From: Ehretia macrophylla | Taxonomy: Eukaryota; Streptophyta; Magnoliopsida; Boraginales; Ehretiaceae | Assembly (NCBI GenBank): GCA_037974665.1 | Contig: CM075771.1 | Location: forward strand, 40,284,425 to 40,348,424 | Length of the DNA: 64,000 nt | Direction of reading: 5' to 3' | Shown: positions 10,210 to 57,144 of the stretch, piece by piece | Layout: each line of letters starts with the position of its first letter | How positions within the stretch are numbered: the first letter of the stretch is position 1 | Made by a program: the position numbers and the translations under genes | The notes under the pieces: generated by a model | Told to the model about the DNA's origin: nothing | What the model saw: the letters and a program-made list of their open reading frames with translations, nothing else | Databases searched by the model: none

Positions 10210-10271
10210 TATCTCTCTAGGCTGGAACTATGAACCGTTAAAACATAAAGGAATTGTGCCCTCAACATGAC

Positions 10272-10390
10272 GGGTGAGATCATACCAGCACTAATGCACC
10301 GGATCCCATCAAAACTCCGAAGTTAAGCGTGCTTGGGTGAGAGTAGTACTAGGATGGGTGACCCCCTGGGAACTCTTCCTGTTGTACCCC
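10272..10390 (+). rRNA. 5S rRNA: 5S rRNA gene
   Basis: Changes: C6A, G41A, C67T, G102C, C105T, G108C, C114T. Altered 3' arm shared with its duplicate at 28804. Confidence 0.95.
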
Positions 10391-10948: not shown

Positions 10949-11067
10949 GGGTGCGATCATACCAGCACTAATGCATTGGATCCCATAAGAACTCCGAAGT
11001 TAAGCGTGCTTGGGCGAGAGTAGTACTAGGATGGGTGACCCGCTAGGAAGTCCTTGTGTTGTACCCC
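10949..11067 (+). rRNA. 5S rRNA: 5S rRNA gene
   Basis: Changes: C28T, C29T, C39A, C94G, G97A, C107T, C114T. Identical to 29482. Confidence 0.95.
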
Positions 11068-11627
11068 CTTTTTCAATTTTTTTTTCCTATAGTTAGGGTT
11101 GCCAAGATACTTTATCCACTACATTTCTATTATCGAATCCCACGGTACCTTGGGCAAGACAACTTCGCTTCACGTAGAGGCTGGGCCAGCAAACCGAGGG
11201 TGTAGGGCTTGTGACCAGGTCTCCGTCGCTCCGGTGCCCATAACTTCTGATCCGTAAGGAGTTACGCGGCGTACAGCATACCGTTGCAAAGCTCTCCGAG
11301 AGTTCTACGACTGGGGCAGCAAGCATGCTTGTTGTGCCCTTTTTTGGAGCCCAAAATCGAATGTTTTCATCAGTTTTGGGCCACTTTTCTTTTTTAGCTC
11401 TATTTTTCGATCCCGGATCGTGCGTCGTGAACTGGTAAAAGGACGACAACCTTACTCGCAGGACATTAGAGGGCCCTACAATGCGTCGATATCTCGTCTT
11501 GCGAGAATGCTACGTTGTTGAAGCAGATGGGTTGTCGTTAAGCCCATTGGGCCTTCTGAATGGGCCATCTCTCTAGGCTGCGACTGTGAACCGTTAACAC
11601 ATAAAGGAATTCTGCCCTCAACATGAC

Positions 11628-11746
11628 GGGTGCGATCATACCAGCACTAATGTACCGGATCCCATCAAAACTCTGAAGTTAAGCGTGCTTGGGCGAGAGT
11701 AGTACTAGGATGGGTGACCCCTTGAGAAGTCCTCGTGTTGCAACCC
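11628..11746 (+). rRNA. 5S rRNA: 5S rRNA gene
   Basis: Changes: C26T, G41A, C47T, C95T, G98A, C116A. By position its partner is 30161, but that gene carries a different set of changes, which suggests gene conversion in one copy. Confidence 0.95.
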
Positions 11747-12302
11747 TATTTTCAAGTTTTTTCCTCCAGTTAGGGTTGCCAAGATACTTTATCCACCACA
11801 TTTCTATTATCGAATCCCACGGCACCTTGGGCAAGACAAATTCGCTTCACGTGGAGGCTGGGCTGCAAACCGAGGGCGTAGGGCTTGTGACCAGCTCTCC
11901 GTCCCTCGGGTGCCCTTAACTTTTGATCCGTAAGGAGTTACGCGGCGCACAGCATATCCTTGGAAAGCCCTCCGAGAGTTCTACGACGATGGCAACTAGC
12001 TTGCTCGCTATGCCCTTTTTGGAGCCCAAAATCGAACATTTTCATTAGTTTCGGGCCACTTTTCTAATTTAACTCTGTTTTTCCGTCCTGGATCATACGT
12101 CATGAGCTGTTAAAAGGACGACAACCTTACTCGCGGGAAATTAGAAGACCCTACAACGCGTCAATATCTCGTCTTGCGAGGATGCTAGGTTGTTGAAGCG
12201 GATGGGTTGTCGTTAAGCCCATTGGGCCTTCTGAATGGGCCATCTCTCTAGGCTGGGACTGTGAACCGTTAACACATAAAGGAATTGTGCCCTCAACATG
12301 AC

Positions 12303-12421
12303 GGGTACGATCATACCAGTACCAATGCACCGGATCCCATCAGAACTCCGAAGTTAAGCGTGCTTGTGCGAAAGTAGTACTAGGATGGGTGACCCCCTGA
12401 GAAGTCCTCGTGTTGCACCCC
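12303..12421 (+). rRNA. 5S rRNA: 5S rRNA gene
   Basis: Changes: G5A, C18T, T21C, G65T, G70A, G98A. Partner of 30836. Confidence 0.95.
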
Positions 12422-12969
12422 TCTTTTCAATTTTTTTCCTCCGGTTAGGGTTGCCAAGATACTTTATCCACCATATTTCTATTATCAAATCCCACGGCAC
12501 CTTGGACAAGACAACTTTGTTTCACGTGGAGGCTGGGCCAGCAAACCGAGGGCGTAAGGCTTGTGACCAGGTCTCTGTCGCTCCGGTGCCCATAACTTTT
12601 TATCCGTAAGGAGTTACGCGGCGCACAACATACCGTTGGAAAGATCTTCGAGATATCTACGACAGGGGTAGCTTGCTATGCCCTTTTTGGAGCCCAAAAT
12701 TGAATGTTTTCATCAGTTTTGAGCCACTTTTCTAATTTAGCTCTGTTTTCCATCCCGGATCGTACGTTGTGAGCTGTTAAAAGGACGACAACCTTACTCG
12801 CAGAACATTAGAGGGCCCTACAATGCGTCGATATCACGTTTTGCGAGGATGCTGCGTTGTTGAAGCGGATGGGTTATTGTTAAGCCCATTGGACCTTCTG
12901 AATGGGCCATCTCTCTTTGCTGGGACTGTGAACCGTTAACACATAAAGGAATTGTGCCCTCAACATGAT

Positions 12970-13087
12970 GGGTGCGATCATACCAGCACTAATGCACCGG
13001 ATCCCATCAGAACTCTGAAGTAAAGCGTGCTTGGGCGAGAGTAGTACTAGAATGGGTGACCCGTGAGAAGTCCTCGTGTTGCACCCC
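12970..13087 (+). rRNA. 5S rRNA: 5S rRNA gene with 1-nt deletion
   Basis: Changes: C47T, T53A (A box), G82A (C box), plus loss of one base in the C-run at 91-95, where a C is also changed to G. T at -1. Partner of 31504, which shares the deletion. Reduced function is likely. Confidence 0.94.
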
Positions 13088-13645: not shown

Positions 13646-13764
13646 GGGTGCGATCATACCAGCACTAATGCACCGGATCCCATCAGAACTCCGAAGTTAA
13701 GTGTGCTTGGGCGAGAGTAGTACTAGTATGGGTGACCCCCTGGGAAGTCCTCGTGTTGCACCCC
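13646..13764 (+). rRNA. 5S rRNA: 5S rRNA gene
   Basis: Changes: C57T (A box), G82T (C box). Partner of 32180. Its spacer is cut at 14082 by the duplication junction. Confidence 0.96.
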
Positions 13765-14082
13765 CTTTTTCAATTTTTTTTCCTCCGGTTAGGGTTGCAA
13801 TGATACTTTATCCACTACATTTCTATTATCGAATCCCACGGCACCTTAGGGAAGACAACTTCGCTTCACGTGGAGGCTGGGCCAGCAAAACGAGGGCGTA
13901 GGGCTTGTGAGCAGGTCTCCTTCGCTCCGGTACCCATAACTTTTGATCCGTAAGAAGTTACGCGGCGCACAGCATACCGTTGGAAAGCTCTCCGAGAGCT
14001 CTACGATGGGGGCAACCAGCTTGCCCACTGTGCCATTTTTTGGGGCCCAAAAGCGAACATTTTCATCAGTTTCGGGCCACTT

Positions 14083-14155
14083 CGAAGTTAAGCGTGCTTG
14101 GGCGAGAGTAGTACTAGGATGGGTGACCCCCTAGGATGTCCACGTGTTGCACCCC
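14083..14155 (+). pseudogene. 5'-truncated 5S rRNA gene at duplication junction
   Basis: Starts at nt 47 (CGAAGTTAAGC) directly after spacer GGGCCACTT, so nt 1-46, the upstream promoter and part of the spacer are missing. It retains the internal control region and 3' end, with G97A, A101T and T106A as in 790. It could not make a full 5S rRNA. Confidence 0.95.
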
Positions 14156-14713
14156 CATTTCAAATTTTTTTTCCTCCGGTTAGGGTTGCCAAGATACTTT
14201 ATCCACCGCATTTCTATTATTGAATCCAACGGCACCTTAGGCAAGACAACTTCGCTTCACGTGGAGGCGGGGCCAGCCAACCGAGGGCGTGGAGCTTGTG
14301 ACCAGGTCTTCGTCACTCCGGTGCCCATAACTTTTTATTTGTAAGGAGTTACACGGCGCAAAGCATACCGTTGGAAAGCACTCCGAGAGCTCTATGACTG
14401 GGGCAGCTAGCTTGCTCGTTGTGCCCTTTTCGGAGCGCAAAATTGAAAGTTTTCATCAGTTTCGGGCCACATTTCTAATTTAACTACGCTTTTCCATCCA
14501 GGATCGTACGTCGTGAGCTGTTAAAAGGACGAGAACCTTACTCGCTGGACATTAGAGGACCCTACAATGCGTCGATATCTCATCTTCCTTGGATACTGGG
14601 TTGTCGAAGCGGATGGGTTCTCGTTAAGCCCATTGGGCCTTCTGAATGGGCTATCTCTCTATGCTGGAACTGTGAACCGTTAACACATAAAGGAATTGTG
14701 CCCTCAACATGAC

Positions 14714-14832
14714 GGGTGCGATCATACCAGCACAAATGCACCGATTCCCATCAGAACTCCGAAGTTAAACGTGCTTGGGCGAGAGTAACACTAGGATGGG
14801 TGACCCCCTGGGAAGTCCACGTGTTGCACCCA
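14714..14832 (+). rRNA. 5S rRNA: 5S rRNA gene
   Basis: Changes: T21A, G31A, A32T, G56A, G75A, T76C, T106A. Partner of 1467. Confidence 0.95.
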
Positions 14833-26109: not shown

Positions 26110-26228
26110 GGGTGTGATCATACCAACACTAATGCTTTGTATCCCATCAGAACTCCGAAGTTATGTGTGCTTGGACTAGAGTAGTACGAGGATAGGTGAC
26201 CCCCTGGGAAGTCCTCGTGTTGCACCCC
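26110..26228 (+). rRNA. 5S rRNA: Divergent 5S rRNA gene
   Basis: Changes: C6T, G17A, A27T, C28T, C29T, G31T, A55T, C57T, G66A, G68T, T79G, G85A. Partner of 7577 but with CTTT rather than TTTT at nt 26-29. The shared changes predate the large duplication. Confidence 0.92.
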
Positions 26229-26786
26229 CTTTTTCAATTTTTTTTCCTCCGGTTAGGGTTGCCAAGATACTTTATCCACTATGTTTCTATTATCGAATCC
26301 CACGGTACCTTGGGCAAGACAACTTCGCTTCAAGTGGAGGCTGGGCAGCAAACCGAGGGCGCAGGTCTTGTGACCAGGTCTCCGTTGCTTCGGTGCCCAT
26401 AACTTTTGATCCGTAAGGAGTTACGCAGCGCACAGCATACCATTGCAAATCTCTCCGAGAGCTCTACGACGGGGGTAGCCAACTTGCTCGCTGTGCCCTT
26501 TTTTGGAGCCCAAAATTGAATGTTTTCATCAGTTTTGGGCGACATTTCTTTTTTAGCTCTATTTTTCAGACCCGGATTGTACGTCATGAGCTGTTAAAAG
26601 GACGACAACCTTACTCGTGGGTCATTAGAGGACCCTACAATGCGTCAATATCTCGTCTTTCGAGGATGCTACGTTGTTGAAGCGGATCGGTTGTCGTTCA
26701 GCCCATTGGGCCTTCTGAATGGGCCATCTCTCTAGGCTGCGACTGTGAAACGTTAACACATAAAGGAATTGTGCCCTCAACATGAC

Positions 26787-26905
26787 GGGTGCGATCATAC
26801 CAGCACTAATGTACCGAATCCCATCAGAACTCCGAAGTTAAGCGTGCTTGGGCGAGAGTAGTACTAGGATGGGTGACCCCCTGAGAAGTCCTCGTGTTGC
26901 ACCCC
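26787..26905 (+). rRNA. 5S rRNA: 5S rRNA gene
   Basis: Changes: C26T, G31A, G98A; identical to 8254. Confidence 0.97.
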
Positions 26906-27462
26906 CCTTTTAAATTTTTTTTCCTCCGGTTAGTGTTGCCAAGATACTTTATCCACCACATTTCTATTATCGAATCCCACGGCACCTTGGGCAAGACAAC
27001 TTCGCTTCACGTGGAAGCTGGGCCGCAAACCGAGGGCATAGGGTTTGTGACCAGCTCTCTGTCCCTCTGGTGCCCATAACTTTTGATCCGTAAGGAGTTA
27101 CGCGGCGCACAGCACACCATTGGAAAGCCCTCCGAGAGCTCTACGACGATGGCAGCTAGCTTGCTCGCTATGCCCTTTTTGAAGCCCAAAATTGAACGTT
27201 TTCATCAGTTTTGGGCCACTTTACTAAATTAACTCTGTTTTTCCGTCCCGGATCGTACTTCGTGAGCTGTTAAAAGGACGACAACCTTACTCTCGGGACA
27301 TTAGAGGACCTTACAATGCGTTGATATCTCACCTTGCGAGGATGCTGGGTTGTTGAAGTAGATGGGTTGTCGTTAAGCCCATTGGGCCTTCTTAATAGGC
27401 CATCTCTCTAGGCTGGGACTGTGAACCGTTAACACATAAAGGAATTGTCCCCTCAACATGAC

Positions 27463-27581
27463 GGGTGCGATCATACCAGCACTAATGCACCAGATCCCAT
27501 CAGAACTCCGAAGTTAAGCGTGCTTGTGTGAGAGTAGTACTAGGATGGGTGACCCCCTGAGAAGTCCTCGTGTTGCACCCC
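27463..27581 (+). rRNA. 5S rRNA: 5S rRNA gene
   Basis: Changes: G30A, G65T, C67T, G98A; identical to 8931. Next gene 663 bp on. Confidence 0.96.
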
Positions 27582-28125
27582 CATTTTCAATTTTTTTTCC
27601 TCTGGTTAGGGTTGCCAAGATACTTTATCCACCACATTTCTATTATCGAATTCCACGGCACCTTGGGCAAGACAACTTCACTTCACATGGAGGCCGGGCC
27701 AGCAAACCGAGGGCGTAAGGCTTGTGACCAGGTCTCCGTTGCTCCGGTGCCCATAAATTTTTATCCGTAAGGAGTTACGCGGCGCACAGCATACCATTGG
27801 AAAGCTCTTCGAGAGCTCTACGATAGCGGTAGCTAGCTTGCTCGCTTTGCCATTTTTGGACCCCAAAATCGAATGTTTTCATCAGTTTCAAGCCACTTTT
27901 CTAATTTAGCTTGGTTTTTCCGTCTCGGATCGTACGTCGTGCGCTGTTAAAAGGACGACAACCTTAGTCGCGGGACATTAGAGGACCCTACAACGCATCG
28001 ATATCTCGTCTTGCGAGGATGCTGGGTAGTTGAAGAGGATGGGTTGCCGTTAAGCCCACTGGGCCATCTCTCTAGGCTGGGACTGTGAACCGTTAACATA
28101 TAAAGGAATGTGCCCTCAACATGAC

Positions 28126-28244
28126 GGGTGCGATCATACCAGCACTAATGCACCGGATCCCATCAGAACTCCGAAGTTAAGCGTGCTTGGGCAAGAGTAG
28201 TACTAGGATGGGTGACGCCCTGGGAAGTCCACGTGTTGTACCCC
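28126..28244 (+). rRNA. 5S rRNA: 5S rRNA gene
   Basis: Changes: G68A, C92G, T106A, C114T. Partner of the near-consensus 9594, having gained three changes. Confidence 0.96.
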
Positions 28245-28803
28245 TATTTTAAATTTTTTTTCCACCAGTTAGGGTTGCCAAGATACTTTATCCACCACAT
28301 TTCTATTATCGAGTCCCACGGCACCTTGGGCAAGATAACTTCGCTTCACGTGGAGGCTGGGCCAGCAAACCGAGGGCGTAGAGCTTGTGACCAGGTCTCC
28401 GTTGCTCCGGTGCCCATAACTTTTTTATCCGTAACGAGTTACATGGAGCATAGCATACCGTTGGTAAGCTCTTCGAGAGCTCTACGACAGGGGCAACAAG
28501 CTTACCCGTTGTACCCTTTTTGGAGCCCAAAATCGAAAGTTTTCATCAGTTTTGGGCCACTTTTCTTTTTTAGCTATGTTTTTCGGTCCCGGATCGTACG
28601 TCGTGAGCTGTTAAAAGGATGACAACCTTACTCGCGGGATATTATAGGGCCCTACAATGCGTCGATATCTCGTCTTGTGGGGATACTGGGTTGTTGAAGC
28701 GGATGGGTTCTCATTAAGCCCATTGGGCCTTCTGAATGGGCTATCTCTCTAGGATGGAACTGTGAACCGTTAAAACATAAAGGAATTGTGCCCTCAACAT
28801 GAC

Positions 28804-28922
28804 GGGTGAGATCATACCAGCACTAATGCACCGGATCCCATCAAAACTCCGAAGTTAAGCGTGCTTGGGTGAGAGTAGTACTAGGATGGGTGACCCCCTA
28901 GGAACTCTTCCTGTTGCACCCC
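28804..28922 (+). rRNA. 5S rRNA: 5S rRNA gene
   Basis: Changes: C6A, G41A, C67T, G97A, G102C, C105T, G108C. Confidence 0.95.
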
Positions 28923-29481
28923 CCTTTTCAAATTTTTTTCCTTCGGTTAGGGTTGCCAAAATACTTTATCCACCACATTTCTGTTATCGAATCCCACGGC
29001 ACCTTGGGCAAGACAACTTCGCTTCACGTGGAGGCTGGGCCAGCAAACCGAGGGCATAGGGCTTGTGACCAGGTCTTCTTCGCTCCGGTGCCTATAACTT
29101 TTGATCCGTAAGGAGTTACACGGAGCACAGCAAACCGTTGGAAAGGACTCCGAGAGATCTACAACGGGGGCAGCCAGCTTAATCACTGTGCCCTTTTTTG
29201 GAGCCCAAAATTGAACGTTTTCATATGTTTCGGGCCACTTTTCTATTTTTTCTCTGTTTTTCATTCTTGGATCGTACGTTGTGAGCTGTTAAAAGGACGA
29301 CAACCTTTCTCACGGAACATTACAGGGCCCTACAATGCGTTGATATCACGTCTTTCGAGGATGCTGCGTCATTGAAGCGGATGGGTTGTTGTAATGCCCA
29401 TTGGGCCTTCTGAATGGGCCATCTCTCTAGGCTGGGACTGTAAACCGATAACACATAAAGGAATTGTGCCCTCAACATGAC

Positions 29482-29600
29482 GGGTGCGATCATACCAGCA
29501 CTAATGCATTGGATCCCATAAGAACTCCGAAGTTAAGCGTGCTTGGGCGAGAGTAGTACTAGGATGGGTGACCCGCTAGGAAGTCCTTGTGTTGTACCCC
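29482..29600 (+). rRNA. 5S rRNA: 5S rRNA gene
   Basis: Changes: C28T, C29T, C39A, C94G, G97A, C107T, C114T; identical to 10949. Confidence 0.95.
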
Positions 29601-30160
29601 CTTTTTCAATTTTTTTTTCCTATGGTTAGGGTTGCCAAGATACTTTATCCACTACATTTCTATTATCGAATCCCACGGTACCTTGGGCAAGACAACTTCG
29701 CTTCACGTAGAGGCTGGGCCAGCAAACCGAGGGGGTAGGGCTTGTGACCAGGTCTCCGTCGCTCCGGTGCCCATAACTTCTGATCCGTAAGGAGTTACGC
29801 GGCGTACAGCATACCGTTGCAAAGCTCTCCGAGAGTTCTACGACTGGGGCAGCAAGCATGCTTGTTGTGCCCTTTTTTGGAGCCCAAAATCGAATGTTTT
29901 CATCAGTTTTGGGCCACTTTTCTTTTTTAGCTCTATTTTTCGATCCCGGATCGTGCGTCGTGAACTGGTAAAAGGACGAGAACCTTACTCGCAGGACATT
30001 AGAGGGCCCTACAATGCGTCGATATCTCGTCTTGCGAGAATGCTACGTTGTTGAAGCAGATGGGTTGTCGTTAAGCCCATTGGGCCTTCTGAATGGGCCA
30101 TCTCTCTAGGCTGCGACTGTGAACCGTTAACACATAAAGGAATTGTGCCCTCAACATGAC

Positions 30161-30279
30161 GGGTACGATCATACCAGCACCAATGCACCGGATCCCATCA
30201 GAACTCCGAAGTTAAGCGTGCTTGTGCGAAAGTAGTACTAGGCTGGGTGGCCCCCTGATAAGTCCTCGTGTTGCACCTC
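30161..30279 (+). rRNA. 5S rRNA: 5S rRNA gene, C box altered
   Basis: Changes: G5A, T21C, G65T, G70A, A83C, A90G, G98A, G99T, C118T. A83C and A90G hit the C box. Resembles 30836 more than its positional partner 11628, so its gene part was probably converted by the neighbouring unit. Confidence 0.94.
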
Positions 30280-30835
30280 CCTTTTCAATTTTTTTCCTCC
30301 AGTTAGGGTTGCCAAGATACTTTATCCACCACATTTCTATTATCGAATCCCACGGCACCTTGGGCAAGACAACTTCGCTTCACGTGGAGGCTGGGCCAGC
30401 AAACCGAGGACGTAGGGCTTGTGACCAGCTCTCCGTCCCTCGGGTGCCCTTAACTTTTGATCCGTAAGGAGTTACGCGGCACACAGCATACCGTTGGAAA
30501 GCCCTCCGAGAGTTCTACGACGATGGCAACTAGCTTGCTCGCTTTGCCCTTTTTGGAGCCCAAAATTGAACATTTTCATTAGTTTCGGGCCACTTTTCTA
30601 ATTTAACTCTGTTTTTCCGTCCTGGATCGTACGTCGTGAGCTGTTAAAAGGACGACAACCTTACTCGCCGGAAATTAGAGGACCCTACAACATGTCGATA
30701 TCTCGTCTTGCCAGGATGCTGGGTTGTTGAAGCGGATGGGTTGTCGTTAAGACCATTGGGCCTTCTGAATGGGACATCTCTCTAGGCTGGGACTGTGAAC
30801 TGTTAACACAAAAAGGATTGTGCCATCAACATGAC

Positions 30836-30954
30836 GGGTACGATCATACCAGCACCAATGCACCGGATCCCATCAGAACTCCGAAGTTAAGCGTGCTTGT
30901 GCGAAAGTAGTACTAGGATGGGTGACCCCCTGAGAAGTCCTCGTGTTGCACCCC
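30836..30954 (+). rRNA. 5S rRNA: 5S rRNA gene
   Basis: Changes: G5A, T21C, G65T, G70A, G98A. Upstream TATA-like motif altered to CAAAAAG, with one base missing downstream of it. Confidence 0.95.
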
Positions 30955-31503
30955 TCTTTTCAATTTTTTTTCCTCCGGTTAGGGTTGCCAAGATACTTTA
31001 TCCACCACATTTCTATTATCAAATCCCACGGCACCTTGGACAAGACAACTTTGTTTCACGTGGAGGCTGGGCCAGCAAACCGAGGGCGTAGGGCTTGTGA
31101 CCAGGTCTCTGTCGCTCCGGTGCCCATAACTTTTTATCCGTAAGGAGTTACGCGGCGCACAACATACCGTTGGAAAGATCTTCGAGATATCTACGACAAG
31201 GGCAGCTTGCTATGCCCTTTTTGGAGCCCAAAATTGAATGTTTTCATCAGTTTTGAGCCACTTTTCTAATTTAGCTCTGTTTTCCATCCCGGATCGTACG
31301 TTGTGAGCTGTTAAAAGGACGACAACCTTACTCGCAGAACATTAGAGGGCCCTACAATGCGTCGATATCACGTTTTGCGAGGATGCTGCGTTGTTGAAGC
31401 GGATGGGTTATTGTTAAGCCCATTGGACCTTCTGAATGGGTCATCTCTCTTTGCTGGGACTGTGAACCGTTAACACATAAAGGAATTGTGCCCTCAACAT
31501 GAT

Positions 31504-31621
31504 GGGTGCGATCATACCAGCACTAATGCACCGGATCCCATCAGAACTCTGAAGTAAAGCGTGCTTGGGCGAGAGTAGTACTAGAATGGGTCACCCGTGA
31601 GAAGTCCTCGTGTTGCACCCC
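31504..31621 (+). rRNA. 5S rRNA: 5S rRNA gene with 1-nt deletion
   Basis: Changes: C47T, T53A, G82A, G89C and one base lost in the C-run at 91-95. G89C is private to this copy. T at -1. Confidence 0.94.
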
Positions 31622-42995: not shown

Positions 42996-43086
42996 GGGTG
43001 CGATCATACCAGCACTAATGCACCGGATCCCATCAGAACTCTAAAGTTAAGCGTGCTTGGGCGAGAGTAGTACTAGGATGGGTGAC
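42996..43086 (+). pseudogene. 5S rRNA gene split by retrotransposon, 5' part
   Basis: Nucleotides 1-91 with C47T and G48A, cut immediately after the C box core GGGTGAC. Promoter flank intact, so Pol III initiation may still be possible and would read into the LTR. The gene is broken as a source of 5S rRNA. Confidence 0.96.
43082..43086. repeat. Target-site duplication GTGAC, left copy
   Basis: These are the last five bases of the 5S gene fragment before the element, equal to gene nt 87-91. The matching copy is at 54278-54282. Five-base duplications are usual for LTR retrotransposon integrases. Confidence 0.93.
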
Positions 43087-43094
43087 TATGAGGC

Positions 43095-43570
43095 CCGACC
43101 CCGATTAACGTGTCGTACCTCGATTTGTGTGCCTTAGACCTAGAACTATATGGCTGACCTTGGATTACGTATCCTGTCTTGATTTTCGTGCATGTCTCAT
43201 CGTACTTCCCTTGACCTAGAATTGTGTGCCCTAATCCTCGATATACGTACGATACCTAGATAAATGCGCCATGACCTAGTTTTATGTGCGAGACCTCAAT
43301 TTGCGTGTGTGTCTTCGTTTCGTGTGCATTAACCTTGAACTGCATGCTTTAACCTAGGTTTAAGAGTCGTACCTCGATTTACGTGCATTGCATTGACTTA
43401 CGTGTCTTGTATTGGTTTACGTACATTTACCTAGGGTTGCGTGCATTTGCATTAGAATCTGTGCATTTATCTTGAAGTACGTTCATTAGTCTTGAAGTTC
43501 GTGTCTTACCTCGTAGTTCGTGTCTACCTCGTAATTCGTGCTTTAGACCTAGGAATCCGTGCCACCACGT
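43095..43570. repeat. Quasi-periodic motif field at the head of the 5' LTR
   Basis: A degenerate motif of roughly 19-22 bp built around 'ccttgaattacgtgc/ttagacctagaa' recurs many times, for example CTTGAAGTACGTTCATTAGT followed by CTTGAAGTTCGTGTCTTACC. An exact 19-bp extra copy near 43506-43524 is absent from the 3' LTR, showing the field still changes by unit gain or loss. Confidence 0.65.
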
Positions 43571-44280
43571 TAATCAAGAAAGAATCCTATACAATCCACT
43601 AACCAATATTATATTCCTAATTCAAATCTCTACAAAACCCACTAACTATAAAATATTCTATTCTACCCAACATTCTCTTACACATGTCATAACTTTTGCT
43701 TATCCTAGACACTTTAAACTAAACCTATGCACTTCTCTCTCTCTCCTCACATGCCTAAACACTATTTTAATGCAACCAATTCAGATTTTTAGCATACTAC
43801 ACGTTTTTTTGACACTACATGCACAATTCAAAGTCAAACAAGACCATACATGCATATAAGTGTTCATTTTATATACTAAAGCACTCCTAAACCCTAGACC
43901 ACCTTTTTGCTAACTCCCAAGCACTCCTCTTGCACTCCTAATCCACCTAAGCACCCTTAGATTATAGTATATTCAAGACAAGGCAGAATTCTGCCCACAA
44001 CAACAAACACCACACGATTAAACCTAGTCAAACCCCTAGACAAGCTCTTACACACACTCTAACCCCAATGCTCCTTTTTCCTAAGCCCTAAACTACCCCA
44101 TGATTATTCCCCTACACCTCACACACTCCCAAGAAGCATATTTTTCAGATTTGAAGTCCCAAGAACCGTTGCAAACAAGGCCAATTCAGCCAAGGCCATA
44201 CAATCAAAACTAGACAACAATAAATCACTAGTTTCATTCTCTTTTGTTGTCTTCTCTCTCATAGCCTTAGCTCTCAAAAT

Positions 44281-44292
44281 CTCTCTCTCTCT
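44281..44292. repeat. (CT)6 microsatellite, 5' LTR
   Basis: Short CT run; the 3' LTR has eight units at the same place. Confidence 0.85.
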
Positions 44293-45850
44293 CCACGATT
44301 TCTCACTGCCTCTTGCACTTAAGAGGCTGACCAAACCATTTAGCCAAGGTAGGAGGCCTCCAAGACCCGAGCAAGCAAGCTACTACACGGCACAAACTCA
44401 TCTAGGGCTATCCACGGCTTAGGTAAGGTTTCCTTGTTTCCTTTTATGTTCCTTTCTATTTCTCTTGGATATAAGCTCATACATGTCTTCCATAGTCATT
44501 ATCAAAGTCAAAGATTAAGGTAGAGGCAAGGAAAGGCACGCTCAAAGCAAGAACCAAGCACTTAGGGCACACCGAGCCATTTTCACAAGCATTTGTGCAT
44601 CTTCTTGTTGAATTGCAAAGGTGAGGGTTAAAACCATTTGAAAACTCTTTAAAAACTCACATGCATGCTCATAAATGTTTTTATTTGCTTCTGTAATTGA
44701 GATATATGGTCGTTCATAAGCTTAAACAACCATGCATGGCAAGATCTTGGCTTGAAAATGATGCTAGGTGAAGTCGAAATGGATGACAGCTCTCTGACCA
44801 GTCTGTTCGAGGTAAGTTAGCTAAGCAAATGATATTGAAATTCTTGAAAATTGGTGGGTGACTAGTTTGGACAGTTTTGAACATTTTTCCCAGAAATAGG
44901 CCGAAGCTAATTTTGACTCTATGGTCCTCAAAATGGCAAATCATTAAAATGTGACCAAATCTGGAAATCTGGAAAAATGAATCAGGTTTTGGCAGATGCA
45001 CTGACCTTGTGGAACGAACCATATTTTACCTAGTAAATGTTGTCCAAAATGCATGAAAATTGGTGTGCTGCTAGATTTTTTAGTTCTTGACAACTTTGTC
45101 AGAAATGGACCAAGGCTAAAACGGAACCTAAGGACCTCAAAAATGATAATTTCGGAAAAGTATGCAAATCTGGACAGTTTTGAGCTATTCCACTGTTTGG
45201 GAAATATTTAATGATCCCGAACTCCAATTGATGCACGGTTTGTTTCTGATTTTAGTTAACTTATTAAGCTTTAATTTGACATCTTATTCACTGGATTTGG
45301 AGATTGTTTGGTTATCCTATTGATTGTGAGAAAACAGCCTATTGCAGTAAAGGTTTCACTCAGCTATATGCTTGGAAAATTGATATAACCTCTCTTGTGG
45401 TACTAATTGCTTGGAATTGTGGTGTTGGAATGTTGTGTGGACTGTTTTGGGTACTTGAGGATGTTTGAATTGAATGATGCATGACTTGAGAATGATTTTG
45501 AGTTGACTTAGGGTTTAATCACGCGGTTAAGCATGAAACGGAAACCCTAATGACTAGGTAGTCTTGCTAAGTGTTGATCATTTGGATATTGTGTGGAAAT
45601 TATATGCTTAGTGGGCTGCCCGTTAATGTCTTATAACTTCAAATGTGATTTTGACCATTGCATGTTGATAAATAAGCTTTTCTTGCACCCGAACCCATGA
45701 TTGATGTCATTGCATGTTGAATAATCTTATCACTTGATTACGTGAACTTTGAAATGGGTTATATGGCTTGACTTGCATGTGTTACATGACTGCCCGTTTA
45801 ATGTTCATATGACTCTATGTGTTCTACAAGTAAAATTTTATGTCAACCAT

Positions 45851-46035
45851 GCCTCATTCGTTTACTTGGCAATATGTGATCTTGAAATTGTCCGGAGGCA
45901 ACCTACTTTGTTGTCCTCCTACTGTGATATATTACCTGTTTTATCGTGCCCTGCCTGTTTACTTGGTCAATGTGCAATCTTATGACTGTCCGGAGGCAAC
46001 CTACTTTGTTGTCCTCCTACTGTGATATATTACCT
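45851..46035. repeat. 97-bp tandem duplication in the 5' LTR
   Basis: TTTACTTGG starts at 45861 and again at 45958. Each copy continues through GTCCGGAGGCAACCTACTTT and TCCTCCTACTGTGATATATT. The GTCCGGAGG/TCCTCCTAC pair within each copy could fold locally. Confidence 0.9.
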
Positions 46036-47228
46036 ATCATAAATGTGCATTGCATACAAGGTTGCAACCTTTCCTGTCGGCATGGTAGTGATCATGCATG
46101 CCGGGCGGCATCGGGCTTGCTGGTGTTACCGTGACCACCATGGTCCCATTCCCTCTCTCGCTTGGGGGCTAGACTTCCTCGGAGAGTTGGGTCGTAGGCT
46201 TTCGGGGTACATCCGGAGTACACCCACCTGGTGTGTTTTGGGGAATGATTTGAAGTCGGCCACAACTTCTGATTCTGAAACTGATCTGAGAGCAAAAGCT
46301 CGACGTATCCTTTTTATTATGTGTATAAGTACTCCCGCTTGGATCCTAGAGAACCTCGGAGAGGAAAGATCGGTATTCTTGTATTTCTGTACTTGTATTT
46401 CTGTTGTATTCATGTTTGAGAAAGGGATTTTCATAAGTTTAATCGAAAAATGAGTTTCAAAACGTATTTCTCGTTCCCCCTTGCTGAGTTCATAAGGACT
46501 CACCCTCTTTTTTTATCACAGGTGAAGAAGAACAGGTACAGGTACCTGAGGATAACGTGCCTATCGATGATTCCTTGGAGTGATTTTTTGTCCCTACGTG
46601 CTTTTATGCTTTGCCTGAAAGTGGTTGCTATATGGATGTTGTATTTGATTGCAAACTACTCATTTCATTGATGTAAATGACCCCGTTGTAATTTGGGTCT
46701 AATTCTAGGATTGTACTATCTATAACCGGACGAACTTTTATTTGGTTGTTTGCTTTCGTTTTCTTAATTAGTAGTTATCATAGGCATTCAAACCACTAGA
46801 TGAACAATCAACTAAGTTAATTCTATCTAATTTCACTTAGGTGCTCATTTCCAAACTAAAGGATAATAGGTACTCGCCTGATAGGAAATTGACAAATAAA
46901 CGGGACATAGTTATCATGTTAGGCTTATTAACCAAATGAGACTTTCAAGATAAACTAGTAGGCAAATTGGTTGGTGACAAATAGGAGTCCTTAATGGAAT
47001 TGGATTGATGATTGGAATAATTGAGGCGTTTAGAGAATTAGGTCAAACCAAATAGCCCAATTACAGCCGTTATGCTGCCGATTTACCGAAAAATTTTGGA
47101 GTCTAGGATAAAACGTTAAGTGCTAAACCTTCTTGAACGATTAAGTACTTGAAAGGACTTGAATGTTTAGATCACACCCTAGTCTAACCTTTATAGACCG
47201 GGTTGGGGCGTGACACCTTATATTAGAA

Positions 47229-47240
47229 TGGTATCAGAGC
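47229..47240 (+). promoter_or_regulatory. Primer binding site (initiator tRNA-Met type)
   Basis: TGGTATCAGAGC is the complement of the 3' end of plant initiator tRNA-Met and is the most common primer site in plant LTR retrotransposons. It lies 13 nt after the LTR end, more than the few bases usual in many families. Confidence 0.9.
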
Positions 47241-50150
47241 TTAGTTTAGTAACTAGGCGTTAGTCGGGTTCAACTCTCGGACCATGGGTAGAAGCCCTAA
47301 GGTAATTATGATGTCTTGTTTATATGTGCTAATGTGTGCTAATGTGCTTTTATTGCTTTGAGAATTGAATACTATGTGCCTTTGTGGACTATATGTATTA
47401 TGTGTCATGCACACCGACACGTTAGTGCCCTCAATAATGCATGCATGCTTTTATACTCCTTCCTTGATACATGTGCATGTTATATAACCATGAATGACTG
47501 TTTATACACATAGATAGTTAGGATTAGGACTTTCAAGGAAGTGAATTCATGCAGGAAGAACGAAAAGTCTCGGTTAGAGATTTCTGGCATCTTCACAGGT
47601 ACTCGATGGATAGTATGTATTATTGGATATGCATATGTATAAAATACGTAGCACGGGTATAATTGTTGAGGTAAAGTTATCTCCTTATTTTTGGAATACC
47701 TATACCTGTGATTAAGTTGTCAATTTTGTAGCTATGAAGTTATTGATTTCGTTAAACCGTTCTTCTAATTGTGGTTCAAGAATAAATGTTAAGGACATAC
47801 AATTTTCCTTAGATATAAAAATATACTATTAAATATGTAGAGTAGTATATATTCTCATGTGCTGATAGTGGAAGTTGACTTGGAGGTTTCTTTGAATCCA
47901 TTTCTCACATCTTAAAATTGGCTTGATAGGCTATCTAAGAAGTTGGCAATATATTCGTACGATTGAATCCTTACTTGATTGGAATTAAGCATTGATGAAT
48001 TTGATATGGTGTATACTAGCAAGTTTCAAGTTCACTAAACGTTGAGACCATAACCTAGAAATTAAAAGATGAATTCGTGGAAGTTGACGATAGTTACTTT
48101 TAGGGGTTAGATTATTGAGACATGGATAGTGTATTTGAGTGACTTAGCGATGGATAACCTCAAGACATGTAGGCAACTCTGGAGACCGAATTTAACAAGG
48201 TTGATGATTCTTTGATATAACAAGATATAAGGATGCTAGAATTGAGGAATTCACGTAACTAGAACTCGTGTTTGGAAAACTGCACCTAAAATGTTAGGAC
48301 GGATAGAAGTGTAAAGTATTGAATTATGTATTAGATGACTAATGTTGCTAAGGTCCTAGGTTGGATGTCAGTGATATTTAGAATCATGGTATTAATTTGG
48401 TGCCTCTCGGATTTAGTTGTGATTATGCAAGTAAGTCATTCTATGCACTCGTTGTTTGGATACTCTAGAGGATGCTGGAAAGCATATATCCTTAAGTAAG
48501 ACCGATGGACCTATTATATAAACCATGGAAATGAGATTAAAGCATCTGGTTGCAAAGTGGAGTCGTTAGGATATGATTAGTAATCCTAAATAGCTAATAG
48601 TGAGTAAGCATGATGATTCATGGCAAACCCTGGGACCTAAGGTCGACGAGTCTCGATGCTCTTAGCCTAGCTGAACATGTAAATGGGAAGAGTAAGATTT
48701 CATAAAGTTAAGATAGAGATGAATCAGAGTCATGATGACCCAAAAGACTATTGTTAGACAACTGTATTATGTGCACCGTTTCATATCTAGAAACTAGCTG
48801 TTGGTAGACTTCGAATCGTGGTCGTTAAATGGAGGGCGGATCTTGTAGTGATAGTTATATGAGTCGTTGACTACTTTTGAAGTTCTATTAGATTATATTG
48901 TGGTTATAATCCTTATGTTGACATGACCTCGAAGTTATTTTGTGTAACGAGCTACTTGGATTAGTATGGTAAGTGTCTTATGAGCTAGATCATTTCGGTA
49001 CCCATTAATAGTCCTAGGATTATTGTTGTTGTATGACCGGTAACCTAGTAGAGAATTGATCTCGCTTACATGGCTATGAACCTAGCTTAGTAACATTAAT
49101 GTCGAAGATATATTGGTGGGCATTAAGTGTTCGAAGGAATGATTAGGTCGCTAAGTGAGTAGGACCATTGTCTTCTTAAGTATGATGTAACCTTGGATCG
49201 AGGTGAGTGGAATTTATTTGAGGTTGAAACTATTCACCTTAGGAGTTTTGGATGAGATTAAAAGAAAATTCTGAAGCGTCGTGACTTGAAGATAGGGATT
49301 TGAATAAGGAAATAGATTGTGGATCATAAGCTGATGAAATTTACTTGTAAGAGTTGAACTAGTGTAACATGATTAGTTTGCCCATGCAATTTCGATGGCA
49401 ATTTGTTGGTGATACTTGATAAACCTTAGAATTCGAGTTTAATGAATCTCAACGGTCTTTCTCCTTGATTACGAGCGTGAAGGTTAACGAAGCTGGGAAA
49501 GGATGTTAGTGAATAGGAGCCTATGATCGGGAGACTAGTCATTAGAAGATTTGCTAATCTAATGTACTTGCGAGATAAAAAGGGCTATAATACCATCGAT
49601 AGATGATGATTTGAGATGGATCAGTTTGTTTGGAGAGTTTTTCCTGAAAATAGAGTCGTATTGTGGAAACGACCCATAACACGTGTATGTCCTAGGTGTT
49701 AACAATTTTGAAGCTAGTTGATAGAATATGTAAATCTGATATAGATCTATCATCTTGAAATTAGTGTATGTCACCCTAGGATCATGGAATTATTGTGATA
49801 TTCCTTTTGAGGTATGAATGCGAGATTGATACAACATGAGCCATGATTTTGGAGTTACAATTATATTGTTAGAATACCGATGCATCTTTGATGACTATGT
49901 TTGGAGATTCTAACCTTAGTTAATAAACTCGACCTTAAGATCAATTGGAGAAAAGAGAGTTGTTCAAAGGAACAAACAGTAAATATAGGGGTCATACCAA
50001 ATTAAATGATTGGAGAAACATAGAAAGTGAATTGGTGGTGGAAAGAGATCGCCAAACACGGGATGAACCGGAGTAGGAAGAATGACAAGGGTCAAAATCC
50101 GTCTAAATGACCTGAATAGGCAAGAATGAATTTCGGGACGAAATTCTTTT

Positions 50151-50163
50151 AAGGAGGGGAGGA
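50151..50163 (+). promoter_or_regulatory. Polypurine tract
   Basis: AAGGAGGGGAGGA, thirteen purines immediately before the 3' LTR. This is the expected plus-strand primer for reverse transcription. Confidence 0.9.
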
Positions 50164-50171
50164 TGTGAGGC

Positions 50172-50610
50172 CCGACCCTGAATAACGTGCCGTACCTCGA
50201 TTTGTGTGCCTTAGACCTAGAATTGTATGGCTGACCTTGGATTACGTATCCTGTCTTGATTTTCGTGCATGTCTCGTCGTACTTGCCTTGACCTAGAATT
50301 GTGTGCCCTAATCCTCGATATACGTACGATACCTAGATAAACGCGCCATGACCTAGTTTTATGTGCGAGACCTCAATTTGCGTGTGTGTCTTCGTTTCGT
50401 GTGCATTAACCTTGAACTACGTGCTTTAACCTAGGTTTAAGAGTCGTACCTCGATTTACGTGCATTGCATTGAATTACGTGTCTTGTATTGGTTTACGTA
50501 CATTTACCTAGGGTTTTGTGCATTTGCATTAGAATCTGTACATTTATCTTGAAGTACGTTCATTAGTCTTGAAGTTCGTGTCTACCTCGTAATTCGTGCT
50601 TTAGACCTAG
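50172..50610. repeat. Quasi-periodic motif field at the head of the 3' LTR
   Basis: Partner of 43095-43570, collinear except for one 19-bp unit missing between GTGTC and TACCTCG near 50580. Confidence 0.65.
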
Positions 50611-51338
50611 GAATCCATGCCACCACGTTAATCAAGAAAGAATCCTGTACAATCCACTAACCAATATTATATTCCTAATTCAAATCTCTACAAAACCCAC
50701 TAACTATAAAATATTCTATTCTACCCAACATTCTCTTACACATGTCATAACTTTTGCTTATCCTAGACACTTTAAACTAAACCTATGCACTTCTCTCTCT
50801 CTCCTCACATGCCTAAACACTATTTTAATGCAACCAATTCAGATTTTTAGCATAATACACGTTTTTTTGACACTACATGCACAATTCAAAGTCAAACAAG
50901 ACCATACATGCATATAAGTGTTCATTTTATATACTAAAGCATTCCTAAACCCTAGACCACCTTTTTGCTAACTCCCAAGCACTCCTCTTGCACTCCTAAT
51001 CCACCTAAGCACCCTTAGATTATAGTATATTCAAGACAAGGCAGAATTCTGCCCACAACAACAAACACCACACGATTAAACCTAGTCAAACCCCTAGACA
51101 AGCTCTTACACACACTCTAACCCCAATGCTCCTTTTTCCTAAGCCCTAAACTACCCCATGATTATTCCCCTACACCTCACACACTCCCAAGAAGCATATT
51201 TTTCAGATTTGAAGTCCCAAGAACCGTTGCAAACAAGGCCAATTCAGCCAAGGCCATACAATCAAAACTAGACAACAATAAATCACTAGTTTCATTCTCT
51301 TTTGTTGTCCTCTCTCTCTTAGCCTTAGCTCTCAAAAT

Positions 51339-51354
51339 CTCTCTCTCTCTCTCT
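51339..51354. repeat. (CT)8 microsatellite, 3' LTR
   Basis: Two CT units longer than its 5' LTR partner, a length change since insertion or at reverse transcription. Confidence 0.85.
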
Positions 51355-52912
51355 CCACGATTTCTCACTGCCTCTTGCACTTAAGAGGCTGACCAAACCA
51401 TTTAGCCAAGGTAGGAGGCCTCCAAGACCTGAGCAAGCAAGCTACTACACGGCACAAACTCATCTAGGGCTATCCACGGCTTAGGTAAGGTTTCCTTGCT
51501 TCCTTTTATGTTCCTTTATATTTCTCTTGGATATAAGCTCATACATGTCTTCCATAGTCATTATCAAAGCCAAAGAATAAGGTAGAGGCAAGGAAAGGCA
51601 CGCTCAAAGCAAGAACCAAGCACTTAGGGCACACCGAGCCATTTTCACAAGCATTTGTGCATCTTCTTGTTGAATTGCAAAGGTGAGGGTTAAAACCTTT
51701 TGAAAACTCTTTAAAAACTCACATGCATGCTCATAAATGTGTGTATTTGCTTCTGTACTTGAGATATATGGTCGTTCATAAGCTTAAACAACCATGCATG
51801 ACAAGATCTTGGCTTGAAAATGATGCTAGGTGAAGTCGAAATGGATGACAGCTCTCTGACCAGTCTGTTCGAGGTAAGTTAGCTAAGAAAAGTATGTTTA
51901 AAATGCTTGAAAATTGGTGGTTGACTAGTTTGGACAGTTTTGAACATTTTCCCAGAAATAGGCCGAAGCTAATTTTGACTCTAAGGTCCTCAAAATGGCA
52001 AATCATTAAAATGAGACCAAATCTGGAAATCTGGAAAAATGAATCAGGTTTTGGCAGATGCACTGACCTTGTGGAACGAACCATATTTTACCTAGTAAAT
52101 GTTGTCCAAAATGCATGAAAATTGGTGTGCTGCTAGATTTTTTATTTCTTGATAACTTTGTTAGAAATGGACCAAGGCTAAAACGGACCCTAAGGACCTC
52201 AAAAATGACAATTTCTGAAAAGTATGCAAATCTGGTCAGTTTTGAGCTATTCCACTGTTTTGGAAATATTTAATGATCCCGAACTCCAATTGATGCAAGG
52301 TTTGTTTCTGATTTTAGTTAACTTATTAAGCTTCAATTTGATATCTTATTCACTGGATTTGGAGATTGTTTGGTTATCCTATTGATTGTGAGAAAACAGC
52401 CTATTGCAGTAAAGGTTTCACTTAGCTATATGCTTGGAAAATTGATATAACCTCTCTTGTGGTACTAATTGCTTGGAATTGTGGTGTTGGAATGTTGTAT
52501 GGACTGTTTTGGGTACTTGAGGATGTTTGAATTGAATTATGCATGACTTGAGAATGATTTTGAGTTGACTTAGGGTTTAATCACGCGGTTAAGCATGAAA
52601 CGGAAACCCTAATGACTAGGTAGTCTTGCTAAGTGTTGATCATTTGGATATTGTGTGGAAATTATATGCTTAGTGGGCTGCCCGTTAATGTCTTATAACT
52701 TCCAATGTGATTTTGACCATTGCATGTTGACAAATAAGCTTTTCTTGCACCCGGACCCATGATTGATGAAATTGCATGTTGAATAATCTTATCACTTGAT
52801 TACGTGAACTTTGAAATGGGTTATATGGCTTGACCTGCATGTGTTATATGGCTGCCCGTTTAATGTTCATATGACTCTATTTGTTCTACAAGTAAAATTT
52901 CATGTCAAGCAT

Positions 52913-53097
52913 GCCTCGTTCGTTTACTTGGCAATATGTGATCTTGAAATTGTCCGGAGGCAACCTACTTTGTTGTCCTCCTACTGTGATATATTACCTG
53001 TTTTATCGTGCCCTGCCTGTTTACTTGGTCAATGTGCAATCTTATGACTGTCCGGAGGCAACCTACTTTGTTGTCTTCCTATTGTGATATATTACCT
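52913..53097. repeat. 97-bp tandem duplication in the 3' LTR
   Basis: Same duplication as in the 5' LTR (TTTACTTGG at 52923 and 53020), so it existed before this insertion and is a family trait. Confidence 0.9.
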
Positions 53098-54277
53098 GTC
53101 ATAAATGTGCATTGCATACAAGGTTGCAACCTTTCCTGTCGGTATGGTAGCGATCACGCATGCCGCGCGGCATCGGGCTTGCCGGTGTTACCGTGACCAC
53201 CATGGTCCCATTCCCTCTCTCGCTTGGGGGCTAGACTTCCTCGGAGAGTTGGGTCGTAGGCTTTCGGGGTACATCCGGAGTATACCGACCTGGTGTGTTT
53301 TGGGGAATGATTTGAAGTCGGCCGCAACTTCTGATTCTGAAACTGATCTGAGAGCAAAAGCTCGCCGTATCCTTTTTATTATGTGTATAAGTACTCCCGC
53401 TTGGATCCTAGAGAACCTCGGAGAGGAAAGATTGGTATTCTTGTATTTCTGTACTTGTATTTCTGTTGTATTCATGTTTGAGAAAGGGATTTTCATAAGT
53501 TTAATCGGAAAATGAGTTTCAAAACGTATTTCTCGTTCCCCCTCAATGAGTTCATAAGGACTCACCCTCTTTTTTTATCACAGGTGAAGAAGAACAGGTA
53601 CAGGTACCCGAGGATAACGTGCCAATCGATGATTCCTATGAGTGATTTTTTGTCCCTACGTGCTTTTGTGCTTTTCCTGAAAGTGGTTGCTATATGGATG
53701 TTGTATTTGATTGCAAACTACTCATTTCATTGATGTAAATGACCCCGTTGTAATTTGGGTCTAATTCTGGGATTGTACTATCTATAACCAGACGAACTTT
53801 TATTTGGTTGTTTGCTTTCGTTTTCCTAATTAGTAGTTATCATAGGCATTCAAACCACTAGATGAACAATCAACTAAGTTAATTCTATCTAATTTGACTT
53901 AGGTGCTCATTTGCAAACTAAAGGATAATAGGTACTCGCCTGATAGGAAATTGACAAATAAACGGGACATAGTTATCATGTTAGGCTTATTAACCAAACG
54001 AGACTTTCAAGATAAACTAGTAGGCAAATTGGTTGGTGACAAATAGGAGTCCTTAATGGAATTGGATTGATGATTGGAATAATTGAGGCGTTTAGAGAAT
54101 TAGGCCAAACCAAAGAGCCCAATTACTGCCGTTATACTGCCGATTTTCCGTAAAATTTTGGAGTCTAGGATAAAACGTTAAGTGCTAAACCTTCTTGAAC
54201 GATTAAGTACTTGAAAGGACTTGAATGTTTAGATCACACCCTAGTCTAACCTTTATAGACCGGGTTGGGGCGTGACA

Positions 54278-54282
54278 GTGAC
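54278..54282. repeat. Target-site duplication GTGAC, right copy
   Basis: Follows the terminal CA of the 3' LTR and resumes the interrupted 5S gene at nt 87. Confidence 0.93.
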
Positions 54283-54310
54283 CCCCTGGGAAGTCCTCAT
54301 GTTGCACCCC
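54278..54310 (+). pseudogene. 5S rRNA gene split by retrotransposon, 3' part
   Basis: Resumes at nt 87 through the duplicated GTGAC and runs to the normal GTTGCACCC end with G108A, followed by the usual T-tracts. Confidence 0.95.
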
Positions 54311-54868
54311 ATTTTTCAATTTTTTTTCCTCCGGTTAGGGTTGCCAAGATACTTTATCTACAACATTTCTATTATCGAATCCCACTGCACCTTGGGCAAG
54401 ACAACTTCGCTTCACGTGGAGGCTGGGCCCGCAAAACGAGGTCGTAGGGCTTGTGTCGAGGTCTCCGTCACTTCGGTGCCCATAACTTTTGATCCGTAAG
54501 GAGTTACACGGCACACAGCATACCATTGGAAAGCTCTTCGAGAGCTCTACAACAGGGGCAGCAAGCTCGCTCACTGTGCCCTTTTTGGAGCCCAAAATCG
54601 AACATTTTCATCAATTTTAGGCCACTTTTCTAGTTTTGCTCTGTTTTTCCATCCCGTATCGTACGTCGTGAGCTATTAAAAAGACGACAACCTTACTCGC
54701 GGGACATTAGAGGGCCCTACAGTGCGTTGATATCTCTTTTTACGAGGATGCTGGGTTGTTGAAGCGGATGGGTTGTCGTTAAGCCCATTGGGCCTTCTGA
54801 ATGGGCCATCTTTCTAGGCTGGGACTATGAACCGTTAATACATAAAGGAATTGGGCCCTCAACATGAC

Positions 54869-56223: not shown

Positions 56224-56342
56224 GGGTGCGATCATACCAGCACTAATGCACCGGAACCCATCAGAACTCCAAAGTTAAGCGTGCTTGGGCGAATGTAGTA
56301 CTAGGATGGGTGACCCCCAGGGAAGTCCTCGTGTTGCACCAC
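56224..56342 (+). rRNA. 5S rRNA: 5S rRNA gene
   Basis: Changes: T33A, G48A, G70A, A71T, T96A, C118A. Its spacer holds the 124-bp duplication, so the next gene is 802 bp on. Confidence 0.95.
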
Positions 56343-56480
56343 CATTTTCAATTTTTTTTCCTCCGGTTAGGGTTGCCAAGATACTTTTTCCACCATATTT
56401 CTATTATCGAATCCCACGGCACCTTAGGCAAGACAACTTCGCTTCACGTAGAGGCTGGGCCAGCAAACCGAGAGCGTAGG

Positions 56481-56729
56481 GCTTGTCACTAGGACTCCTT
56501 CGCTTCGGTGCCCATATCTTTTGATTCGTAAGGAGTTATGCGGCGCACATCATACATTTGGAAAGCTCTCCGAGAACTCTACGACGGGAGCAGCCAGCTT
56601 GCTCGCTTGTGACCAGGTCTCCGTCGCTCCGGTACCCATAGTTTTTGGTCCGTAAGGAGTTACGCGGTGCACAACATATCGTTGGAAAGCTTTCCGAGAG
56701 CTCTACGATAGGGGCAGCCAGCTTGCTCG
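56481..56729 (+). repeat. 124-bp tandem duplication inside a 5S spacer
   Basis: The spacer stretch beginning GCTTGT occurs at 56481 and again at 56605. Both copies run through the CCATA, GTAAGGAGTTA and GAGAGCTC/GAGAACTC landmarks to the AGCCAGCTTGCTCGC stretch. The duplication alone accounts for the 802-bp spacing of genes 56224 and 57026 (678 + 124). The copies differ at many positions, so this is not a recent slip or it came from a different donor unit. Confidence 0.9.
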
Positions 56730-57025
56730 CTGTGCCCTCTTTTGGAGCCCAAAATCGAACGTTTTCATTAGTTTCGGGCAACTTTTCTTTTTTAGCTCTG
56801 TTTTTCCTTCCCGGATCGTACGTCGTGAGCTGTTAAAAGGATGACAACCTTACTCGCGGGACATTAGAGGGCCCTACAACGCGTCGATATCTTGTCTTGC
56901 GAGGATGCTGGGTTGTCGAAGCAGATGGGTTATAGTTAAGCCCATTGGGCCTTCTGAATGGACTATCTCTCTAGGCTGGGACTGTGAACCGTTAACACAT
57001 AAAGGAATTGTGCCCTCAACATGAT

Positions 57026-57144
57026 GGGTGTGATCATACCAGCTCTAATGCACCGGATCCCATCAAAACTCCGAAGTTAAGCGTGCTTGGACGAGAGTAG
57101 TACTAGGATGGGTGACCCCCTGGGAAGTCCTCGTGTTGCACCCC
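57026..57144 (+). rRNA. 5S rRNA: 5S rRNA gene
   Basis: Changes: C6T, A19T, G41A, G66A. T at -1. Confidence 0.96.

Follow-up and report, generated by a model that had tools for sequence, protein, structure and literature searches.

In wheat, a Fatima long terminal repeat (LTR) retrotransposon lies within the coding sequence of a 5S ribosomal RNA (rRNA) gene on 5BS (PMC5688495). More than 15% of the Prosopanche panguanensis genome is 5S ribosomal DNA (rDNA), which to its authors' knowledge was unprecedented (PMC12222929), and the pikes (Esox) carry amplified 5S rDNA in which the authors see no significant erosion of the genes (PMC5437419). Here we describe a 64,000-nucleotide stretch of Ehretia macrophylla DNA, hereafter the window (C8:40284425–40348424 of a 1.58-Gb, 20-contig assembly), in which an 11,191-bp LTR retrotransposon splits a 5S rRNA gene. 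The insertion is a new case of something already in print, since in wheat too an LTR retrotransposon lies within a 5S gene that belongs to a diverged array. The explanation that best accounts for the locus, with a probability that we put at roughly 0.8, is that a non-autonomous element resembling the large retrotransposon derivatives (LARDs) inserted once in a diverged 5S-derived satellite, and that its family is over-represented there.

The features of the window, all on the + strand, are as follows.

126–63915, +: 5S-derived tandem array holding the element (78 Rfam 5S matches)
42996–43086, +: 5′ part (nt 1–91) of the split 5S rRNA gene (Rfam match and consensus comparison)
43082–43086, +: left GTGAC target copy (5 bp)
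43087–47215, +: 5′ LTR, 4,129 bp, beginning TATGAGGCCC (a mutated TG terminus) and ending GGGGCGTGACA (self-comparison)
47216–50163, +: interior of 2,948 bp (+ strand frames of at most 56 aa; a single chance-level Pfam hit among the pieces scanned)
47229–47240, +: primer-binding-site-like sequence TGGTATCAGAGC (by eye)
50130–50163, +: ATTTCGGGACGAAATT...AAGGAGGGGAGGA, a Del/Tekay-like motif followed by the polypurine tract at 50151–50163 (by eye)
50164–54277, +: 3′ LTR, 4,114 bp, beginning TGTGAGGCCC and ending GGGGCGTGACA (self-comparison)
54278–54282, +: right GTGAC target copy (5 bp)
54278–54868, +: 3′ part of the split 5S gene with its spacer, completing the 677-bp unit

The 5S gene starting at 42996 is interrupted after nt 91 (position 43086), and the element occupies 43087–54277. 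The sequence directly past nt 91 is TATGAGGCCCG..., and the gene resumes at 54278 with GTGACCCCCTGGG. GTGAC flanks the element on either side, the element and its two target copies together spanning 43082–54282, and both flanks with one GTGAC make up a unit of 677 bp, the commonest unit length in the window array (20 of 77 steps). A preliminary description of this locus had given the same insertion point, duplication, element length and restored unit length, and every number is confirmed; the single clean insertion that it proposed, in which 5 bp were duplicated exactly and nothing was lost, is supported by the LTR anatomy and by the restored unit. No further LTR matches are present in the rest of the window beyond hits of 17–24 bp at E values of 1.2 or worse.

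The element has the anatomy of a complete LTR retrotransposon, with two direct LTRs that have TG..CA-type ends, a target duplication and, by eye, a primer binding site after the 5′ LTR and a polypurine tract before the 3′ LTR. The former matches what we take to be the 3′ end of the initiator methionine tRNA, and the sequence preceding the latter resembles what we take to be the 3′ motif of Del/Tekay elements. The LTRs start differently, with TATG in the 5′ copy and TGTG in the 3′ copy, indicating a substitution in one terminus, and they differ at 101 of 4,109 sites (Kimura two-parameter distance, K2P, 0.025), which corresponds to an age of about 1.0–1.9 million years at assumed rates of 1.3e-8 or 6.5e-9. 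The faster rate is that used in PMC5688495. Gene conversion between the LTRs as a distortion of this age was considered and rejected, K2P being 0.0255 over the first 700 columns and 0.0249 over the rest; each stretch of 250 columns has between 1 and 11 mismatches. The start of the 5′ LTR (43087–43786) is 96–97% identical by BLAST to several copies of the element elsewhere in the assembly and 95% identical to its own 3′ LTR. Each LTR also contains two repeats of about 80 bp (45860–46035 and 52922–53099), 88–90% alike and about 97 bp apart.

The interior appears to lack coding capacity. Its longest + strand stop-to-stop frame is 56 aa, and no retroelement domain was found in a Pfam scan of 28 open-frame pieces (all 16 from the interior + strand, four of 33 from the interior − strand, and eight LTR frames); the single hit has an E value of 0.057 and is at chance level, although very short or shifted remnants could escape such a scan. 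LARDs are large retrotransposon derivatives with long LTRs around an interior without gag or pol, multiplied as families. This element resembles them in having LTRs of more than 4 kb, a roughly 3-kb interior in which no genes were detected and a multiplied structure, and it differs from them in that its sister copies lie mostly in 5S-derived satellite. Its ends partly resemble those of Del/Tekay elements. The attachment (att) sites of type A Del elements have GGG at −8 to −10 of the U5 (unique 5′) end, and TGTAACACCC is the commonest form of the U3 (unique 3′) start in sorghum and maize (PMC4029996). The U5 end of this element has GGG at −8 to −10 and fits type A, and its U3 start TGTGAGGCCC shares positions 1–3, 5 and 8–10 with TGTAACACCC; in the att-site comparison it matches that common form at positions 3, 9 and 10 and has G in place of C at position 6. 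It also differs from Del/Tekay in that no gag or pol was found, nor did Pfam reveal the reverse transcriptase, integrase or chromodomain of that clade in this element, and the sequence retrieved from other places yielded no coding partner. Judged by its ends and motifs, it is best called a probable non-autonomous, LARD-like relative of Del/Tekay.

The array into which the element inserted is decayed and is not a healthy 5S locus. The 78 Rfam 5S matches lie head-to-tail, all on the + strand, and 58 of the 77 unit steps measure 675–679 bp. Across the 73 units of normal length (counting the restored split unit and setting aside units of unusual spacing) mean pairwise identity is 88.2%, and next neighbours at 88.5% are barely more alike. 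The A box is exact in 38 of these units, the intermediate element in 48, the C box in 21 and all three in nine. The genes are scarcely better conserved than the spacers: at CpG sites the rate of departure from the consensus is 12.9% in genes and 15.5% in spacers, against 4.5% and 5.9% at the remaining sites, so that change at CpG is nearly three times that at other sites in gene and spacer alike. The conserved genes and intact control boxes of functional 5S rDNA are thus not seen in the window, where nine of 76 genes retain all three boxes, and the figures are similarly low for genes in randomly drawn windows (one of 16) and in the flanks of sister copies of the element (two of 28). Expressed as a Jukes–Cantor distance from the mean pairwise identity, the units have diverged by 0.128, five times the 0.025 between the LTRs; if rates are alike, the array probably diverged long before the insertion and was already in that state when the element arrived.

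The array has several further irregularities. A nine-unit block at 7577–12970 is repeated 18,532–18,534 bp onward at 94–99% identity (7577–13087 and 26110–31621), and there are further unit pairs at spacings of 15.7–17.7 kb, marking the duplication of a large block within the array. Odd unit steps of 923, 501, 1068 and 802 bp (1467–2390, 7076–7577, 13646–14714 and 56224–57026) may reflect units that have gained or lost short stretches or been duplicated in part, and a partial 5S gene lies at 14079–14152.

The array in the window belongs, as a single block, to a 5S-derived satellite that is present on many chromosomes. A random sample of 60 places was drawn from the 11 contigs (of 20) of known length, 20 as 10-kb windows (200,000 bases, including 5,088 Ns) and 40 as points of 200 bases. 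5S-unit-like sequence makes up 14.3% of the 200 kb (28.5 kb) and occurs in four of the 20 windows (95% interval 6–44%), and a 5S-unit match is present at 11 of the 40 further points, or at 14 of 60 when the opening 200 bases of each 10-kb window are counted as well (95% interval 13–36%). On these figures the satellite accounts for between about a seventh and a quarter of the genome as sampled; it is presumably heterochromatic. The 15 positive places tend to be closer to the ends of chromosomes (median relative distance 0.15) than the 45 negative places (0.33; P 0.03). A full 5S gene is absent from two of the four positive 10-kb windows. In one further piece of the assembly (L032, 1–1401) there is a 339-bp tandem repeat made of nt 165–479 of the 5S unit, without the gene, and similar spacing is found in L006, L045 and L046; from its sequence, this repeat would be a shorter satellite, either derived from the 5S spacer or ancestral to it. 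The two windows without a full gene together with the 339-bp satellite indicate that gene-bearing units form only part of the total. With a coding partner in mind, open frames were listed in two random windows with LTR-like sequence (L060 and L064); in L060 such frames (8526–9865) lie within a few kb of a Del/Tekay-like LTR, and one of them resembles what we take to be ribosomal DNA read as protein.

Copies of the element are numerous and are found disproportionately in this satellite. A query from the start of the LTR gave 40 matches at 95–100%, the window's own included (40 scored of 7,086 first-look candidates), and a 1-kb internal query gave 40 at 96–100% (40 scored of 3,344). We took as sister copies ranks 2–21 of the 40 scored in the internal-region search (n = 20), their interiors being matched by the 1-kb query and not read whole. 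At least one end is readable in 18; L019 and L023 lack a readable end and were left out, although the second end piece of L019 (L020) is 5S-like. In 12 of the 20 both ends lie within the fetched pieces, where an element of about 11.2 kb predicts them, and the target duplications of these 12 are exact over 5 bp in ten, match at four of five bases in one and are lacking in one. Fourteen of the 18 copies with a readable end lie in 5S-derived sequence and four outside it; among the latter, L043 has flanks that match the element's interior, so that it is nested in another copy, and its duplication is TAGGC. Some junctions are common to several copies (TTGCA in four, GCCCT in two and GTTAA in two). 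When these are counted once and the window is excluded, nine of the 12 distinct insertions are in 5S-derived sequence, at nine positions (nt 172, ~176, 213, 240, 325, 384, 527, 560 and 591) and in both orientations. In this sample, chosen by similarity, the satellite thus holds more insertions than its share of the genome would give, P being 4e-6 if that share is 14%, 2e-4 if it is 23% and 0.007 if it is 36%.

We considered several other accounts of this pattern. One is that the family seeks the 5S C box in the manner of Ty3, guided by RNA polymerase III (Pol III) factors, with nt 91 as its preferred site. The pattern of the left nt-91 junction has five matches in the assembly at up to two mismatches, all exactly at nt 91 and in one orientation, and that of the right junction with GTGAC has 14 at up to three mismatches (no matches with the reversed-pattern control for the left or with the control for the right). 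A left and a right junction with GTGAC enclose 3,558 bp at C4:81.93 Mb, somewhat less than one window LTR and perhaps a solo LTR, and at C8:37.92–37.95 Mb the two kinds of junction are separated by 25 kb. The 460 bp upstream of the five nt-91 junctions are 77–90% alike; the window's own upstream stretch has a mean identity of 89.6% (maximum 93.5%) to 68 other window units. Since these flanks are as unlike as those of unrelated units, at least some of the five are probably separate insertions, the alternative being recombination within the 91-nt gene part. Against C-box targeting, however, stand scans with gap patterns over 31 positions, which have no peak at nt 91 or nt 87, so that a hotspot there was rejected. 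On the left (nt 91–121) there are 116 exact junctions, duplicates included (control 0), and the 100 listed of these occupy 13 positions: 74 are at nt 103, one is at nt 91 and eleven other positions have 1–6 each, the pattern used missing the window's own junction (TATG) and a further nt-91 match on C11 falling outside the 100. On the right there are 41 junctions, duplicates included (control 0), again at 13 positions, with 12 at nt 72, two at nt 87 and a mean of 1.3 per position; these positions were judged by length, one of the 41 (on C17) by length alone. The over-representation of nt 103 presumably arose by block copying, and nt 72 is likewise over-represented. Moreover, the nine mapped sister sites at nt 172–591 are outside the gene and in both orientations, and in neither the sister map nor the two scans are insertions concentrated at one position of a Pol III gene. 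The family has inserted into 5S genes many times and nothing marks nt 91 as preferred, and we regard targeting of the C box as very improbable.

An assembly artefact joining the element to the array is less credible still. Long tandem arrays are difficult to assemble, but the exact 5-bp duplication, the complete element, the restored 677-bp unit and the recurrence of the same junction type at many other places in the assembly leave this account next to no weight. The split gene might retain a working promoter, with Pol III transcripts into the LTR feeding the silencing or expression of the element. The preliminary description had called the promoter active-looking, and this stands insofar as the A box, the intermediate element and the C-box core GGATGGGTGAC are intact and only two of 91 nt (nt 47 and 48) differ from the array consensus. 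It does not hold for the C box as a whole (nt 80–97 in the numbering that we presume to apply), which is broken after nt 91, nor does it fit with the decay of the array. TTTT is a stop signal for Pol III, and TTTT runs are present at 43183 and 43280, about 97 and 194 bp into the LTR; with the C box cut, the array decayed and a stop so early, long read-through into the LTR, which the same description had raised as a possibility, is unlikely, and a functional role for such transcripts is improbable. Random insertion into a common satellite, with a few insertions multiplied by block duplication, has more in its favor: the satellite is 14–23% of the random sample, the shared junctions and the large nt-103 class point to multiplication in blocks, and only three of the six random windows with an LTR match of at least 300 bp contain 5S units. 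Yet nine of 12 events fall in the satellite even with shared junctions counted once, with small P values at shares of 23 and even 36%, and 13 different positions are occupied in each scan, and we consider an absence of any preference unlikely, though deserving of consideration. The last of the points in its favor also weighs against a LARD-like family over-represented in diverged 5S satellite, as do several others. The sister copies were picked by similarity to a satellite-dwelling element, which may inflate the excess; two of the satellite events (L031 and L045) are in a spacer-like repeat of about 340 bp without the gene; the two GTTAA copies (L033 and L041), whose left flanks are 91% alike, were counted once and could be two insertions; the LTR dating depends on assumed rates; and a reverse transcriptase or integrase of the family was not found in the sequence examined, the Del/Tekay assignment resting on ends and motifs.

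Nearly identical occupied units are present on different chromosomes. For the TTGCA insertion, found on contigs 6, 8, 10 and 12, the left flanks are 97–99% alike over 636–703 bp and three of the four right flanks are 94–97% alike, when units within the window average 88%. The nt-103 junctions have adjacent spacings of 14.97 kb and 106.6–107.3 kb on contigs 5 (twice), 8 and 9, and similar pairs (9.5–16 kb with 107–139 kb) occur on contigs 3, 8 and 9. This junction spacing suggests that occupied satellite has been copied between chromosomes in modules of more than 120 kb. A non-autonomous element of Ty3/gypsy type, with probable Del/Tekay affinity, would have been copied by the proteins of a relative, the supplying partner perhaps being a chromovirus; it integrated once, at GTGAC, by way of a staggered cut of 5 bp, in a unit of a 5S satellite that had probably diverged by then. 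The excess of the family in the satellite may come from targeting by the integrase or from better survival there, and satellite and element may subsequently have spread jointly by block duplication. Whether these form a paired satellite–retrotransposon system, in which a 5S satellite of some 14–25% of the genome is the main landing ground and both travel in joint modules of >120 kb, is a more tentative proposal, to which we would give a little less than an even chance.

By itself the insertion is ordinary biology, well preserved, and it matters for what it points to. Insertions of this kind can serve as datable markers in a satellite that otherwise offers no landmarks, and through them one may trace the copying of 5S blocks between chromosomes and when homogenization of the array ceased, and they bear on whether elements with long LTRs seek such satellite or merely survive there. 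A literature search, mostly of titles and the beginnings of abstracts and so no proof of absence, found no plant 5S-derived satellite of such size beyond the Prosopanche case. The closest parallel to the insertion is Fatima in wheat, likewise an LTR retrotransposon in a 5S gene of a highly diverged region that is contrasted with a more conserved array elsewhere; the wheat report has one such case, in a region broken by many elements of which the others are in the spacer (PMC5688495), whereas here the array is otherwise little interrupted and forms a single block of a satellite that many chromosomes carry. The pikes share the massive multiplication of 5S sequence over many chromosomes, but their genes are described as not significantly eroded (PMC5437419) and here the genes are decayed. 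Prosopanche panguanensis is likewise a plant with 5S sequence among the leading repeats of its genome, although its 5S is described as 42–45.5% GC with large divergence (PMC12222929), compared with 57% GC in the gene consensus here. The Ehretia genome may thus be a second case of 5S as a leading repeat, and one for which chromosome-scale sequence is at hand.

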